From assembly GCA_038851035.1 (NCBI GenBank), contig JAWCLH010000008.1, positions 1 through 64,000 on the forward strand: a stretch of DNA of 64,000 nt, in the 5' to 3' direction. This document shows positions 27,502-35,550 of this stretch, piece by piece. Each line of letters opens with the position of its first letter. Position 1 is the first letter of the stretch. The DNA comes from Thermoplasmata archaeon (GTDB taxonomy: Archaea > Thermoplasmatota > DTKX01 > VGTL01). The position numbers and the translations under genes are program-made. The notes below the pieces were generated by a model. It did no database searches. It saw only the letters and a list, made by a program, of their open reading frames with translations, and had not been told where the DNA came from.

Positions 27502-29193
27502 TCAGCCAGGGCCACTGACTGGAATTCGAAGCCCAGCCCTCCGCGCCGCCGCTCGCGCCCCTGCATAGCCCGCGTCGGCGTGCCTGAGGACGCCTATGCC
27601 GGGGTCAGTCGTGAACACCCTCTGAATTCTTTTCTCCGCCTCCTTCGTGCCGTCGGCCACAACGACCATTCCAGCGTGAATCGAGTAGCCCACTCCGACC
27701 CCGCCGCCGCTGTGGATGTGGACGGAGTCCGCGCCGGCGGCACAGTTGAGAAGGGCGTTCAGGAGAGGCCAGTCCGCCACGGCGTCGCTGCCGTCGAGCA
27801 TCCCCTCGGTCTCCCTGTTCGGAGAGGCCACGGAGCCGCAGTCGAGGTGGTCGCGGGTGATCGCAATCGGAGCCGAGAGCTCCTTTCTCCTAACCATCCT
27901 ATTTATAGCTTTAGCGAACTGGGCCCTCTCGCCGAGGCCCAGCCAGCAGACCCTCGCGGGAAGGCCCTCGAACGGAACGTACTTCTCGGCGAGCTGAATC
28001 CAATTGACGAGCGTCCTGTTCTTTGGGAAGAGCCGGAGCACGACCCTGTCCGTCTTGAGAATGTCCTCAGGGTCGCCGGAGAGCGCTATCCAGCGGAATG
28101 GCCCACGGCCCTCGCAGAACATCGGCCTTATGTAGGCGCTGACGAAACCCGGGTAGGAGAAGGCCTCCTTCACACCCGCCTGAAGCGCCTGCCCGCGCAG
28201 GTTGTTTCCGTAGTCGAAGACCACCGCCCCCCTCTTCTGGAACTCAAGAAGCGCCCTGACGTGCGCCGCCATCGATTCATAGGACCGCCGGAGGTACTCC
28301 GCGGGGTCGCTCCTCCTGAGCTCCGCCGCCTCTCCAACACTCAGCCCCGCAGGGACGTAGCCGTTGAGGGCATCGTGGGCGGATGTCTGGTCGGTCACGA
28401 GGTCCGGGACGACGCCCCTCCTCACGAGCTCTGGGTGGGTCTCGGCGCAGTTCCCGACAAGGCCTATTGACAGCGCCTCGCCCCTATTTTTTGCGTCGAG
28501 GGCAATTTCGAGCGCCTCGTCGAGCTCCCCGACCATTTTGTCACAGAATCCCCTCTCCACCCTCCTCTTTATCCTCTCCGGGTCCACCTCCACGATGAGC
28601 GCCACCCCACCGGCCATTTTTATCGCGAGCGGCTGGGCTCCGCCCATGCCCCCGAGACCCCCGCTGAGCACTAGCCTCCCCTTCAGGCTCCCGCCGAAGT
28701 GCTTTCGCGCGGCGGCGGCGAAGGTCTCATAGGTCCCCTGTATAATTCCCTGGGTTCCTATATAGCACCAAGAGCCCGCCGTCATCTGACCGAACATCAT
28801 TAGGCCCTTTTCCTCGAGCTCCCTGAAGTGCTCCCAGGTGGCCCAGCGTGGGACCAGGTTGGAGTTGGCGATGAGCACCCTCGGAGAATCCCGTGTGGTT
28901 CTGAAAACGCCCACCGGCTTCCCCGATTGAATGAGCAGCGTCTCGTCTCCCTCCAGCCTCCTCAGCTCCCTGACAATGGCGCGGAAGCAATCCCAATTCC
29001 GCGCCGCCCTTCCGGTCCCGCCGTAGACAATCAGCTCCTCGGGTCTCTCGGCATTCTCGAGATTGTTGTAGAGCATGCGCAGAATCGCCTCTTGGCGCCA
29101 GCCCCGACAGGAGATTCTGCTACCCCGGGGTGCCCTGAGGGGCATTTTCGGCGGTCTTCCCAGCTCCACCATTCCATCCACCCAGACCCCCAT
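27502..29193 (-). CDS. hutU: Urocanate hydratase
   Basis: The product of about 563 residues is the second enzyme of histidine degradation, turning urocanate into imidazolonepropionate with tightly bound NAD. Diagnostic blocks are [34 protein letters not shown] (NAD site), [36 protein letters not shown] and the catalytic-cysteine region [21 protein letters not shown] 29193 has GGTGAGG just upstream and gives the family's normal length; the frame continues further upstream but would overlap the divergent gene. No hutH, hutI or formiminoglutamate gene is in the window, so the pathway must be completed elsewhere. Confidence 0.95.
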
Positions 29194-29251
29194 TGCCTCA
29201 CCATCCAAAATCCTTTTCTCCACAGATGGTGGTGTTGATTGTGGTGGTCGA

Positions 29252-29539
29252 ATGATAGTGGCGGACGTCAGCGTTGTCCCTATAGGAGAGGGGACGAGCG
29301 TGAGCAGGTTCGTCAGGAAGGCCGTCGAGGCCCTCGAGTCCTCTGGTCTGAAGACGATGCGGGGCCCGATGTCCACGAGCGTGGAGGCCAGGGACATCGA
29401 CGAGCTCTTCGCGGCGGTGAAGGCGGCCCATCGAGCGGTCCTGGCCGAGGGAGCGAGGCGTGTGCTGACCACGATAAAAATCGACGAGAGGCTGGACAAG
29501 GAGCATACAATGAAGAGCAAGCTCGACGCAATAAAATAG
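29252..29539 (+). CDS. MTH1187/YkoF-type thiamine-binding-like protein (DUF77)
   Basis: The 95-residue protein has the ferredoxin-like fold signature of the DUF77/Thiamine_BP family: [19 protein letters not shown] at the N-terminus, the central [16 protein letters not shown] block and the closing [15 protein letters not shown]. Relatives bind thiamine or related ligands, or are of unknown role. ATG 29252 marks the point where family similarity begins. It is divergent from hutU and 10 bp upstream of a surface-protein gene, though no functional link is obvious. Confidence 0.85.
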
Positions 29540-29549
29540 GGGGTGGGGA

Positions 29550-31988
29550 ATGATGCGCTCCACAAAGTCCGCGCTCGGAATCGCTCTCGTGATTCTCACT
29601 ATGTTACCTCCCTTTCCCGGCACTTCCTACGCGTCACCGGACCTCGAAGGAGAGCACGGGGCCGGGGCGCCGGTCCACCGGAGCACCCCCGTTGAGGCGC
29701 CCGAGTGGGCGTCCGGGAGTTACTGGACCTACACCACTGACGAGGAGTTGCTCTACTGCGCCACACTGGAGAGCGCCACCCTTGTCGTCACCCACATCTC
29801 CGGCGCGCTGACGGAAACGCTCGCGGGCAAGGAGCTACTAGGCTCCACGTTCGTCTACAGACTCGAAGGAAGCCTCGCCCAGACCATCCGGGGGAATCTC
29901 ACGGTCTACATCGGCGGCTTCCCGGTAACGACGCCCGTTACCTGGCCGCTCGTCGGCAACACCACGGAGCTGCTCAGGGTCGCGGATCTGGCCACGCTCT
30001 ATACCTTCTCGCACCTTGTAGTGGACATGGGCACCCTCGGAAGCCTTCAGGTCGACACCTCTTCCTCCTTCTCCCCTCCGCTCGAGAGCTATAAATTCCC
30101 CCTCTCCCCCGGCCTCAGCTGGCGCCTCAGCTCGACCGTGAGCGCATGGACCCGGACCTCGGGAAGCATGGGGGCATTCGAGTACAACACCACCACCGTC
30201 ATAGAGGCCATGGCTACGGTGGCCGGCGAAGAAACGGTCCCGACCCCGGTAGGTGCGCTGCGCTGCCTCAACATCACCCACCGCGGGACCAGCACCACAC
30301 CTGGCGGGTCCCCGGAGCCCTACAACAGGACCATTCTTTATTCACCGGGGGCTGAGAAAGAGGCCATCAAGACCTCCGGGCTCGGCTGGGCCCCCGTCGC
30401 CCTCGCCCTCTCCGATTTCAAGGTCAATCACGCGCCGAGGGTAGTTTCGCCCCCAACCCCCGTCTCCTTCCCCGAGGACACCGTTGACACCTCCCTGAAT
30501 CTCTCGGGTATTTTCTCGGACCCGGACAATGGCGACGAGCTGAGGTTCAGCGCCTCCGGCCTGGCCAACATCAGCGCGCAGGTGGATGCCCGAACGGGAG
30601 CGGTGAGGCTTGTGCCCCCACAGAACTGGAGCGGCTCAGAAACCGCACGCTTCAGGGCACAGGACTCTCGTGGCGCCGCCTGCGAGACCTCCCTACAGAT
30701 CACAGTGACCCCCGTTAACGACCCGCCCTTTGTCTCAGCCCCGCTCGGCGCGGTCGTGATGGACGAGGATACCGTGGACGAGACGCTCAACCTCACCCCC
30801 CACTTCTCCGACCCGGACCTCCTCTACGGGGACGGGCTCAATTTCTCCTTCAGGAATAATGGAAGTGTGGCAGTTCAGGTCCATGCGAACGGCACCGTCC
30901 TCCTCTCCCCCCTGACGAACTGGAGCGGGTTCGTCAATATCACATTTGTGGCGACTGACCTCGAGGGCGAAAAGGCGGAGGGGATACTGGAGCTCGCCGT
31001 CCGCAACACCCCTGACGCTCCCGTCTGCACCTGCGCCACCCACCGCCTCGAGGTTCCTGAGGACGGAGCGCTCACCCTCAGCCTTCCGGAGCGCTTCTTC
31101 GACGCAGACCTTCCCTACGGGGATAGGTTGGTCTTCAGCGCCTCCTCAGCTCTGCCCGGGATGGTACTAGACATCGAGCCCGGGAGGTGGGAGCTCCGCG
31201 TCACCCCTCCATCCAACTTCAGCGGCTCTGCGCCCCTGCTCTTCCGCGCCACGGACTCCACAAATATGAGCGCAGAAGAGGAGGTGGAGCTCTCTGTTGT
31301 TCCTGTCAATGACCCGCCCGTAATTCTGGCAAGCTATCCCGTCGAGAGAAGCGTGTCGCTGCCCGAGAACTCCACTCTAGAATTCCACGCGGTCGCCATG
31401 GACGCTGACTCTCCCGCCCTCCAGTATCTTTGGTTCCTTGACGGCGCAGTTGTGGGCGAGGGGCCCTCGTTCAATCTCACGCCCACCTTCGACTCCGCTG
31501 GCGTCCACGACCTGCGCATAAGGGTCTCGGACGGCGAGCTGGAGGCTGAAGCGGATTGGAGAGTCACCGTCCTGAACGTAAACAGGCCACCCCAGAACGT
31601 CCGGGTTCTCTCACCCGCGGAGGGAGCCAGAATTCAGAAGGGGAGGAAGGTTGTTCTCAGGGCCTGCGCGACCGACCCGGACGGGGACGCGCTCACCTTT
31701 GTCTGGAAGGAAAGCGGGAGGGTGCTGGGAACGGGCGAGCTGCTGGAGCTGGGAGGATTCAAGGAGGGAAGGCACACGCTCACAGTCTTGGTCAGTGACG
31801 GAAACTCGACCGTGGATGCCTCGGTCTCGTTCGCGGTCGCACCTCCACCCTCTTCGAGCTCGCCGGCCCCGGGGGGCCCGATGCTCCTGCTCGCCGCGCT
31901 CGCGCTCCTGTATGCGAAGAGATTTTTTCTGGAGAGGGAGAGGCGAGAGATAGAAAAAATTAAATTCGATGTAACAGATGAGCGGTGA
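29550..31988 (+). CDS. Surface-anchored protein with cadherin-like (tandem-95) repeats
   Basis: The 812-residue protein has a signal peptide (about 6-28), a globular N-terminal domain of about 260 residues with many Asn-X-Ser/Thr sites, then three cadherin-like tandem-95-type repeats. Each repeat has an EDTVD- or EDGAL-type start, an FSDPD- or FDADL-type loop and a VNDPPF- or VNDPPV-type linker. Two PKD/Ig-like domains follow ([34 protein letters not shown]), then a hydrophobic C-terminal helix and a basic cytoplasmic tail. Such proteins serve in adhesion or the cell surface layer. No enzymatic motif is visible. It begins 10 bp after the DUF77 gene. Confidence 0.75.
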
Positions 31989-32229: not shown

Positions 32230-34122
32230 ATGGAGGGGGAGAGGGATGAGGCGCGAGTTCTGAAAATAGCCCGCGCCCTTTCCTACATCAACTTCTCGTC
32301 TCTTGAGAGCTGGTACGGGCATCCCGGATTCATCAAGATATTCCAGGGACTCAAGGAGAGCGGTCCGGACCTCGGATGGGCGCTAGTGATTGGCGGAATG
32401 GAGAGGGCCCTCCTTGGCGACAGGAGCACCCCGCCCGAGATCTACTCCGGAATTCTAAAAGAGAACAGAGTGACGATTCTGCATCTCCTTGGGCTCTTTC
32501 CACAGCACCCGCCCATCAGGCTCCATGGAAGGGGCTTTAGAATACACGGCCTGAGTCCCTTTCATGCGGACATAGCGCCGCATCTCCAGAGGGTACTGGA
32601 GCGCTTCGGGAAAGGAGAGCTCGGACTCGAGGGCCTCGGGGAGGAGCTATACCGCCTCCACACGAGCGACATGAGGGACTCCTTGTACTACCACGCTCTT
32701 CTGGCCGCTCGCGCCGTGCGCCACCCCGTTTCTGCCCACCTGCTCTGGAAGGCGGTCACGCTCCTTCCAAGTGGCGGTCTAGGGGGTTCCGAGGTCGAGC
32801 GCTCGATTCAGAGGCTCGAGCTATGCCAGAAAGAGCAGCTTAGCCTGGCGCTGCTCAGGGACCCGAGGTCCGGGAGCGCCCGTCTGGAGAGGTACCTGCC
32901 GGCCTGTCCGGGCGACACCACAGCCATTCCCTCTGGGACAGTACAGCCGCCCGTCGTCGCGCTTTTCCCCGGCGCACCCCACCCCGCAGAGCCGACTCCA
33001 CATCCAGAAGACTACATGACGAAGGCGAGGCGCTTTCTAAAGGAGCGCGGGGTTCCGGAGTGGAGCCCCGGGTCACCAAGATTCCCTGGCCTCGAGGGCC
33101 TCTCCACCGCCTCGCTCGAACGCCTCCTAGCGCCCTTCCTTCTGAGGTGCTTCTCCCGTCCGGGAGAGCTAATCGACAATAGCGAGCTGATTCTGGCGGT
33201 GGGTCCTCCAGAGGTGGACAAACTGGCCCTGCTCCGCTCCATCGCGGGCGGGCTCGGCCTAATATTCAAGATGGTGCCCTGCCACCAGCTCTATTCGCGC
33301 TGGGCCGGAGAGACGGAGAGCAAAATCATCGCGGCTCTCTCTGCGGCCAGAGAGGAGGCGGAAAGGGGTGGGGCACCGGCAATGGTCGTATTCCCGAGCT
33401 CCGCCGACCTACGCGAGGGTCGGGGCTCGAAAGGGCTGCGTAGGAGCGAGACCCGTGAGTTGCCGCTCCCGTCAGCTTGTGGAGGGCTCGGAGGCGAGCC
33501 GGGTGCGCTCTATGAGGACCGCGGGGCCGGAGGCAGCCCGGACCAGGACGTAATTCTCGCCCTGGCCGCCCTCCTCACTGGCCCGAGAAAGCTCGAGGCC
33601 TTGGGCGCGAGCCGGCGCCCAGTTCTTCCTGTCGCCACCGCCCCCTCGGCGTCGGTATTGGACTCGGTGCTGAGGAGCAGGCTCACAGTCGTTCGCTTTG
33701 ACCCGCCGAGCGAGGAAGAGCTCGAGCGGCTGCTAATCCAGAACGTCGTCGGGAGATACCTCGTCTGCGATTTTGAGAGAGTGTCCTTCGCCTCGCTCGC
33801 GTCGGAGGCGCGGGGGCTCATGCCCGCTGACATCGCCGCTGCTGCCAGGGCGGCGAAGCTACGCGCACTACAGAGAAGGGCCCGAGAGCTCGGGACGAGC
33901 CTCTCCTCTGCGCCCCCCGGGCTCAGGGAGAGAATTCGCGACAGTTACATCATTCTTGAGGAGGACCTCAGGGCGGCGATTCGCGCGAGGAAAGGGGGCC
34001 CAGCGGGCGAGAGGGGTGGGCGCGCTCGCGAGCTCTCTTGCGAGCTCTCTTTAATCAATGGCCAGCCGAGACTTGGGCAGGCTCGCCTTTACAGATGGAG
34101 CGACGGGGAGGGGTCTCATTGA
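32230..34122 (+). CDS. Degenerate AAA-type protein lacking Walker A and B residues
   Basis: The 630-residue protein has an N-terminal helical region of about 290 residues, then a domain laid out like a classical AAA ATPase. Where GPPGTGKT is expected it has GPPEVDKL (325-332). The region-1 block YSRWAGETESKI is intact. Where FIDEID is expected it has FPSSAD (388-393), so both acidic residues are lost. The sensor-1 region reads LPVATAPSASVLDSVL and is followed by LTVVRFDPPSEEELERLL, matching the family's arginine-finger side. It is therefore probably a non-hydrolysing AAA fold. Next to it lie two zinc-ribbon genes on the same strand. The family inside AAA is unclear. Confidence 0.65.
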   Translation: MEGERDEARVLKIARALSYINFSSLESWYGHPGFIKIFQGLKESGPDLGWALVIGGMERALLGDRSTPPEIYSGILKENRVTILHLLGLFPQHPPIRLHGRGFRIHGLSPFHADIAPHLQRVLERFGKGELGLEGLGEELYRLHTSDMRDSLYYHALLAARAVRHPVSAHLLWKAVTLLPSGGLGGSEVERSIQRLELCQKEQLSLALLRDPRSGSARLERYLPACPGDTTAIPSGTVQPPVVALFPGAPHPAEPTPHPEDYMTKARRFLKERGVPEWSPGSPRFPGLEGLSTASLERLLAPFLLRCFSRPGELIDNSELILAVGPPEVDKLALLRSIAGGLGLIFKMVPCHQLYSRWAGETESKIIAALSAAREEAERGGAPAMVVFPSSADLREGRGSKGLRRSETRELPLPSACGGLGGEPGALYEDRGAGGSPDQDVILALAALLTGPRKLEALGASRRPVLPVATAPSASVLDSVLRSRLTVVRFDPPSEEELERLLIQNVVGRYLVCDFERVSFASLASEARGLMPADIAAAARAAKLRALQRRARELGTSLSSAPPGLRERIRDSYIILEEDLRAAIRARKGGPAGERGGRARELSCELSLINGQPRLGQARLYRWSDGEGSH

Positions 34123-34179
34123 ATTTCAGCCCCGAGCAACCCCGGAACCAGGAGGAGGGCCCGGGCGCGGGGAAGAGAG

Positions 34180-34482
34180 TTGAGACAGTTCGAAGGGGGT
34201 GAGGAGACGTTTGTCTGCGCGGGATGCGGGAGGGTCGAGAGGGAGATTGCCGCAACATGTCCGGAGTGCGGTTCCGTGATGAGGAGCGAGAGGGAGCTGG
34301 TGCATAGGTGGGTAGGAAGCCCCGGGCCAAATCAGGGCTTCATGCTGAACTGCAGAGAGAGGAGTCGGGTTGCATTCATGGACTACGAAATCGCCAACGA
34401 GCTGCCCTACTGCCCCTTCTGCAGAAAAGAAATCGAGTATAGGCCGCGTAATCTTCTAGGGAGCGAGGGCGCAGAGCTCTGA
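34180..34482 (+). CDS. Small zinc-ribbon protein
   Basis: The 100-residue protein carries CAGC...CPEC near the N-terminus and CPFCRKEIEYRP near the C-terminus, giving one complete zinc ribbon plus a further CxxC pair; a free cysteine (LNCRER) lies between. The start is TTG 34180, preceded by GGAAGAGAG; there is no ATG that would keep the first zinc ligands. It follows the pseudo-AAA gene by 57 bp and may be its partner. Function unknown. Confidence 0.6.
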   Translation: MRQFEGGEETFVCAGCGRVEREIAATCPECGSVMRSERELVHRWVGSPGPNQGFMLNCRERSRVAFMDYEIANELPYCPFCRKEIEYRPRNLLGSEGAEL

Positions 34483-34659: not shown

Positions 34660-35550
34660 ATGCATCGACGCTGGAGGGAGAGGATGGTTAAAAGTAGGGC
34701 TAAATCCACATGGATTGTCATCCCGAGCTGCGCAGGCCTGTTCCTGTGGAAAAAAAAGAAGGCAGAGCCTTCCCCACCCTCCACGCCCACGCAGCCATCG
34801 CCACCACCGGGAGGCGGGGCTGGTGTCCCTCCCTCCCTCACGCCCGTAGCGCCGCCCCAGCCCGCCCCGCTCTCCGGCAGTATGGGAACGGAGTCGTATC
34901 CTAAGGCCAAGCCCGCACCACCGGAAAAGCTCAGAGAGTGGGCCGAATTCGAGAGAATTTATGGCCAGCCCCATCCCGAGGCCGGAGGCTGGGTCAACCC
35001 CCCGCCCGCCGGATGGGTCAGCGGTGGAAGGCCTAGGTGCCCCGTGGATGGCTTCAGCGTCTCCTACGAGGTCTTCAGCGGCCAGTACTTCTGCTCCCGG
35101 TGCAACAAGAGGTACACAAAGGAAGAGGTCGCTCCCAAGGGGCCCTCGCGCGAGTACGAGTATTTTGCAGTGAGCGCTTCCCGCGTGAGGTCGGAGGAGG
35201 AGGCAGGGGAGGCCTCGAGCCGCCCGGCCGGTGAATCGGCCCCACAGCCGCTCTGGCTGAGCGCTGGCGCGACGTTGGAATCCGGCGGAGAGGAGGCTTC
35301 ACCGGCGGAGACTGGGCCCTCTCCCGAAACTGCCGGAGCGCCCGAGCCGTCCCCTAGAGAAGAGATGGAGTCACCGGAGGGCACACCAGCCGCTCAGCCG
35401 GAACCGGTCACCGAAGCGGAGCCGGTCCCCCCCTCCGCAGAGCCCCTACCTGAGGCCGAACCAGCGGAGCTAGAGCCGGGCGCCGGAACTACCGAAGCCG
35501 CCCCCAGGGGAGAGACCCCAGAGAAGCCGAGAAAACCGGAGGGCGGCTGA
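34660..35550 (+). CDS. Zinc-ribbon protein with proline-rich and glutamate-rich disordered arms
   Basis: The 296-residue protein has a short N-terminal hydrophobic stretch (STWIVIPSCAGLFLW, about 16-30), possibly a membrane anchor, then a basic patch and a proline-rich linker. A folded core follows (about 85-155) with a zinc-ribbon pattern CPVDGFSVSYE...YFCSRCNKRY, having one Cys in the first knuckle and CxxC in the second. The final 130 residues are low-complexity E/P/A. The core begins EFERIYGQPHPEAGGW, which I do not recognise. ATG 34684 is an alternative start. It lies between another zinc-ribbon gene and the ribosomal S6e promoter. Confidence 0.55.
   Translation: MHRRWRERMVKSRAKSTWIVIPSCAGLFLWKKKKAEPSPPSTPTQPSPPPGGGAGVPPSLTPVAPPQPAPLSGSMGTESYPKAKPAPPEKLREWAEFERIYGQPHPEAGGWVNPPPAGWVSGGRPRCPVDGFSVSYEVFSGQYFCSRCNKRYTKEEVAPKGPSREYEYFAVSASRVRSEEEAGEASSRPAGESAPQPLWLSAGATLESGGEEASPAETGPSPETAGAPEPSPREEMESPEGTPAAQPEPVTEAEPVPPSAEPLPEAEPAELEPGAGTTEAAPRGETPEKPRKPEGG

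Follow-up and report, generated by a model that had tools for sequence, protein, structure and literature searches.

We identified a lineage-restricted protein family in which a single CDC48/katanin-like AAA domain shows conserved loss of its nucleotide-handling motifs, lies behind an orphan N-terminal domain, and has a small zinc protein as its constant gene neighbor. While nucleotide-dead AAA domains are an already known kind, this combination is new. The gene pair occurs in two genera of one archaeal family, and our limited, non-exhaustive search of the literature and of family libraries returned no description of it, in agreement with a preliminary description of the DNA, whose author knew of no described system with such a pair. 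As judged from its sequence, the protein, hereafter called pseudo-AAA, most likely serves as a structural or regulatory subunit and not as an engine.

The locus and its counterpart in a second genus

The window, i.e., the whole 64,000-nucleotide stretch of DNA that was analyzed, is contig 8 of an archaeal genome of 2.69 Mb that is 99% complete. The genes of concern are as follows.

29550-31988: large PKD/cadherin-domain surface protein, upstream of the pseudo-AAA gene
32230..34122, plus strand: pseudo-AAA protein, 630 aa, ATG start (Pfam AAA match; ortholog L055:10001-11731)
34180..34482, plus strand: small double zinc-site protein, 100 aa, TTG start (60% identical ortholog L055:11768-12085)
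34660..35550, plus strand: zinc-ribbon protein gene, next downstream of the zinc protein and tied to the pair by position only

Downstream of the last of these lie genes for ribosomal protein S6e and eIF2-gamma (both identities assigned from sequence) and for a PIN protein. The single whole-protein ortholog of pseudo-AAA was found in genome G001 ('Euryarchaeota archaeon isolate M_DeepCast_200m_m1_298', contig VGTL01000003), which belongs to the same family and another genus; this 576-aa protein (L055:10001-11731) is 48% identical to the window copy (49% within the N-terminal domain) and is encoded at the equivalent place, beside the equivalent zinc protein.

A divergent AAA domain behind an orphan N-terminal domain

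Pseudo-AAA comprises one AAA domain of the classic clade with its lid, placed C-terminal to an orphan helical domain of ~220 aa. Its domains and motifs are listed below, all on the plus strand.

32230..32895: orphan N-terminal domain, ~residues 1-222, predicted to be all-helical with low confidence
33010..34020: AAA large domain and helical lid, residues 261-597 (PF00004, AlphaFold2, Foldseek)
33202..33225: degenerate Walker A GPPEVDKL (was GPPGTGKT), residues 325-332; GPPSADVP in the ortholog
33295..33312: pore-loop-1 motif SRWAGE, residues 356-361; identical in the ortholog except at one flanking position
33391..33408: degenerate Walker B FPSSAD, residues 388-393; FSDG in the ortholog
33673..33681: conserved arginines of R482-S-R484, where katanin has its Arg-finger cluster (LRSRL/LRERL vs. 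katanin LRRRL)

On sequence grounds, the AAA kinship of the 32230-34122 open reading frame is real though weak. The Pfam AAA family (PF00004) matched residues 321-383 of the window copy with 25.4 bits, above the cut-off of 21.2, and the G001 ortholog with 17.3 bits, below it. A profile built from the two sequences matched AFG2B, p97, and CDC48 in the PDB with E-values of about 5e-9 to 2e-6, as well as katanin in the lid half. Further, an AlphaFold2 model of residues 261-597 (pLDDT 79.4, pTM 0.68) showed a complete AAA core and lid, and its best Foldseek match was p97 N-D1 (E=5.7e-10, TM about 0.5). The 20-row alignment behind this model consisted of the query and 19 relatives, intact CDC48 domains among them, and the model is therefore biased to that fold and is supportive rather than independent. 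A full-length model from the two-sequence alignment was poor (pLDDT 41), and its Foldseek matches are to be read as a hint only. The AAA reading of the preliminary description is supported by the Pfam match, the PDB profile matches, and the fold model. The whole protein scored 21 bits against the CDC48 family TIGR01243, for which the cut-off is 802.65, and with its single AAA domain it falls outside this family. The N-terminal domain matched neither Pfam families nor, in a profile search, PDB chains up to E=10. The only match to a defense system was IetA (E=0.017), which lay over the AAA stretch, and such a reading was rejected.

Loss of the nucleotide-handling residues

Both nucleotide-handling motifs had been described as lost in the window copy (GPPEVDKL and FPSSAD), which our alignments confirmed, and the sensor-1 Asn is gone as well, being replaced by Pro in the window copy and by His in the ortholog. 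To place these losses, 18 intact AAA domains drawn from the same and related genomes were aligned with both pseudo-AAA proteins; all 18 keep the Walker-A G-G-K-T residues, the Walker-B D-E pair, and the sensor-1 Asn. Neither pseudo-AAA copy carries the GxxGxGK[TS] Walker A and hhhhDE Walker B of a classic AAA ATPase. The ortholog may keep one Walker-B acidic residue, depending on the alignment register.

An active but divergent ATPase, with compensating residues elsewhere in place of the lost ones, is improbable. The Walker-A Lys is indeed present as Lys331 in the window copy, but the ortholog has Val at this position, and both copies lack the Walker-A Gly and Thr, the Walker-B D-E pair, and the sensor-1 Asn.

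Conservation of the loss

The preliminary description had named close homologs with intact Walker motifs as the finding that would make this a case of local decay. No whole-protein ortholog with intact motifs was found among 60 relatives, in five genomes of the class, or in a pattern scan of 84,980 species, in which two short conserved peptides were required and G001 was the sole match; nor did the N-terminal domain, which is present in 2 of the 293 genomes of the phylum, lead to an intact ortholog in any of them. A single-sequence scan for orthologs gave no match, and viral contigs gave none. Since the G001 ortholog shares the motif losses, these are not a local decay.

A 585-aa frame in genome G002 was rejected as an ortholog, because it has intact motifs and a different N-terminal part. 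In the window genome itself, the PF00004 matches that we read among a total of 13 lack this N-terminal domain and were typed by sequence as CDC48, PAN, and RFC-, Orc1/Cdc6-, MCM-, and Lon-like proteins.

Comparison of the window genome with G001 gave dN/dS values of ~0.38 for pseudo-AAA and ~0.20 for the zinc protein; S6e and eIF2-gamma yielded 0.10-0.15, and the surface protein 0.51. These Nei-Gojobori values come from two genomes with synonymous sites near saturation and are approximate. They indicate that the genes of both pseudo-AAA and the zinc protein are under purifying selection. Within pseudo-AAA, constraint is strongest in the N-terminal domain and the lid half and weakest in the linker, the C-terminal tail, and the Walker-B/insert stretch. 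A CDC48-like gene degenerating toward a pseudogene would account for the narrow distribution and for the faster evolution of pseudo-AAA relative to the neighboring S6e and eIF2-gamma genes. However, two genera whose synonymous divergence is near saturation both have an open frame, with a dN/dS of about 0.38, the N-terminal domain is 49% identical between the copies, the losses are shared, and the neighbor is conserved, all of which makes such degeneration very improbable.

Retained residues and the possible role of pseudo-AAA

The pore-loop column of intact relatives mostly reads K-[WYF]-x-G, and the Trp-x-Gly of pseudo-AAA falls in this column; the second pore-loop residue is Ala, neither aromatic nor large aliphatic. 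In the C-terminal half, a profile comparison with katanin matched Arg482 to the RRR finger cluster, at its first Arg, in a weak alignment (E=0.008), whereas a CDC48-centered alignment chose another register, with Arg489 on the second finger and Ser/Glu on the first. No more than one of the two canonical Arg-finger positions of the second region of homology is matched, in an uncertain register. Arg482, Arg484, and Arg489 are identical in both orthologs, which is weak evidence, as single-residue conservation here rests on two sequences at 48% identity. Pseudo-AAA may accordingly have kept an Arg finger.

Our preferred reading, which we hold tentatively, is that pseudo-AAA serves as a nucleotide-free AAA subunit, conserved as such, and associates either with further copies of itself or with an intact CDC48 or PAN ring, in the manner of LAP1 and LULL1. 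These two proteins have AAA+ domains without nucleotide motifs and, in a mixed ring proposed to include Torsin, supply the latter with an Arg finger (PMC4358337). By analogy, (i) the dead AAA domain would pack side by side with other AAA domains, which may be further copies of itself, forming a ring, or those of an intact CDC48-type or PAN ATPase from the same cell; (ii) the N-terminal domain, perhaps together with the zinc protein, would bind a client or target; (iii) the retained Arg482 could complete the active site of a neighboring subunit in trans; and (iv) the pore Trp could be a point of contact with the substrate. Pseudo-AAA would then act as an adaptor and a possible activator, not as a motor, as LAP1 and LULL1 do with Torsin. 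The window genome encodes intact candidate partners, namely two 740-aa CDC48-like proteins and one 415-aa PAN; no CDC48 or PAN gene lies near the pseudo-AAA locus, and the partner ATPase is for this reason a candidate only. The earlier suggestion of a non-hydrolyzing subunit, with a partner or a structural role, therefore holds as to the motif loss, which is conserved in another genus, while the partner itself is a proposal.

Nearly as likely is a plain scaffold, in which the AAA fold is no more than a binding platform, made up of the N-terminal domain, the dead AAA domain, and perhaps the zinc protein, with neither ring formation nor activation. The disappearance of all ATP-handling residues suits this reading, as do the variability of the Walker B segment, where one of the copies has a long insert, the Ala at the second pore-loop residue, and the lack of an adjacent gene for a partner ATPase. 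On the other hand, the pore-loop Trp-x-Gly, the Arg cluster, and the full lid have all been retained, although a mere scaffold would have no need of them.

The zinc protein as a possible cofactor

Comparison of the zinc protein with its G001 ortholog showed conserved sites at C13xxC16, C27xxC30, C58, and C78xxC81, as well as at His42, which gives seven Cys in 100 aa, arranged as a C4 knuckle plus C58/C78/C81. The full-length protein is limited to the two pseudo-AAA genomes among the 293 of the phylum; matches in other genomes were rejected as generic C4 knuckles. With TackOD1 (PF18551) and with double zinc ribbons (DZR), it has CXXC-type zinc sites in common. However, its match to TackOD1 (E=1.6e-4, 21.7 bits) lies under the curated cut-off of 32, and it has fewer Cys than TackOD1, in which 11 Cys form five CXXC and one HXXC motif spread across about 200 aa (PMC5847659).

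The zinc protein is perhaps a cofactor of pseudo-AAA. The two genes lie on the same strand, 57 bp apart in the window genome and 36 bp apart in G001, and both genomes conserve an order with pseudo-AAA first, the zinc protein second, and the next zinc gene third; of the earlier proposal that the two proteins are paired, it is this adjacency that stands, and a functional complex is conjecture. No such pair precedes the S6e-eIF2-gamma cluster in six of six other genomes, two of which offer little upstream sequence. It may also be, with a likelihood somewhat short of even, that the zinc protein is a mere neighbor by inherited gene order and that pseudo-AAA is a real conserved subunit by itself, which is compatible with the other explanations weighed above. 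Indeed, the two genomes share gene order over ~15 kb, unrelated genes included, and partnership and neighborhood are for this reason inseparable here. The short same-strand spacing argues against mere neighborhood, as does the fact that the two full-length proteins are found in the same 2 of 293 genomes and in no others of these.

Relation to known AAA systems

Pseudo-AAA shares with CDC48/p97, AFG2, and katanin/VPS4 the AAA large domain and lid and the pore-loop Trp-x-Gly, in line with the profile and fold matches, and differs from them in that it lacks an intact Walker A, Walker B, and sensor-1 and carries just one AAA domain, preceded by an unrelated orphan N-terminal domain. It resembles LAP1 and LULL1 in having an AAA+ fold without nucleotide motifs and an Arg at a putative Arg-finger position. 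Whereas LAP1 is a membrane protein of eukaryotes that is linked to Torsin, pseudo-AAA is archaeal and belongs to the classic AAA clade, and the ATPases named above are candidate clients only; calling it LAP1-like is hence a claim about how it might work, not about membership. A more far-reaching version, in which pseudo-AAA would be a prokaryotic counterpart of Torsin/LAP1, with a new client-binding N-terminal domain and a zinc cofactor, and would join CDC48 or PAN in a mixed ring so as to activate it and aim it at a lineage-specific target, appears unlikely.

If the subunit reading is true, regulatory pseudo-subunits of AAA rings have arisen in archaea as the Torsin activators have in eukaryotes, and pseudo-AAA would offer a simple system in which to study the control of a ring motor by a dead subunit. 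Even without it, pseudo-AAA represents an unrecognized protein family, with an orphan N-terminal domain, in a poorly sampled archaeal class.

Additional observations

Two intact AAA proteins were encountered in related genomes. In one of them (L019:610-2355, G002:C57; 581 aa), a coiled coil and a long middle region accompany a single intact AAA domain; this protein recalls the ARC/Mpa- or PAN-type proteasomal ATPases and would be unusual for an archaeon if its middle region contains two OB domains. The other (L022:1264-2487, G001:C4) is a 408-aa single-domain protein for which the AAA matches in the window genome include no evident counterpart.

At the locus itself, the 34660-35550 product has 296 aa, whereas its G001 ortholog (L055:12128-13768) has 546 aa, with a signal-like N-terminus and CarboxypepD_reg repeats, an exported part that is missing from the window genome. 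A Thiamine_BP (PF01910) protein at 29075-29539 is encoded beside a urocanase-like gene, in divergent orientation to it, and is conserved in G001. Finally, the class shows a great expansion of PKD/cadherin-like surface proteins, with 109 matching stretches in G001, 55 in G002, and 65 in G003.
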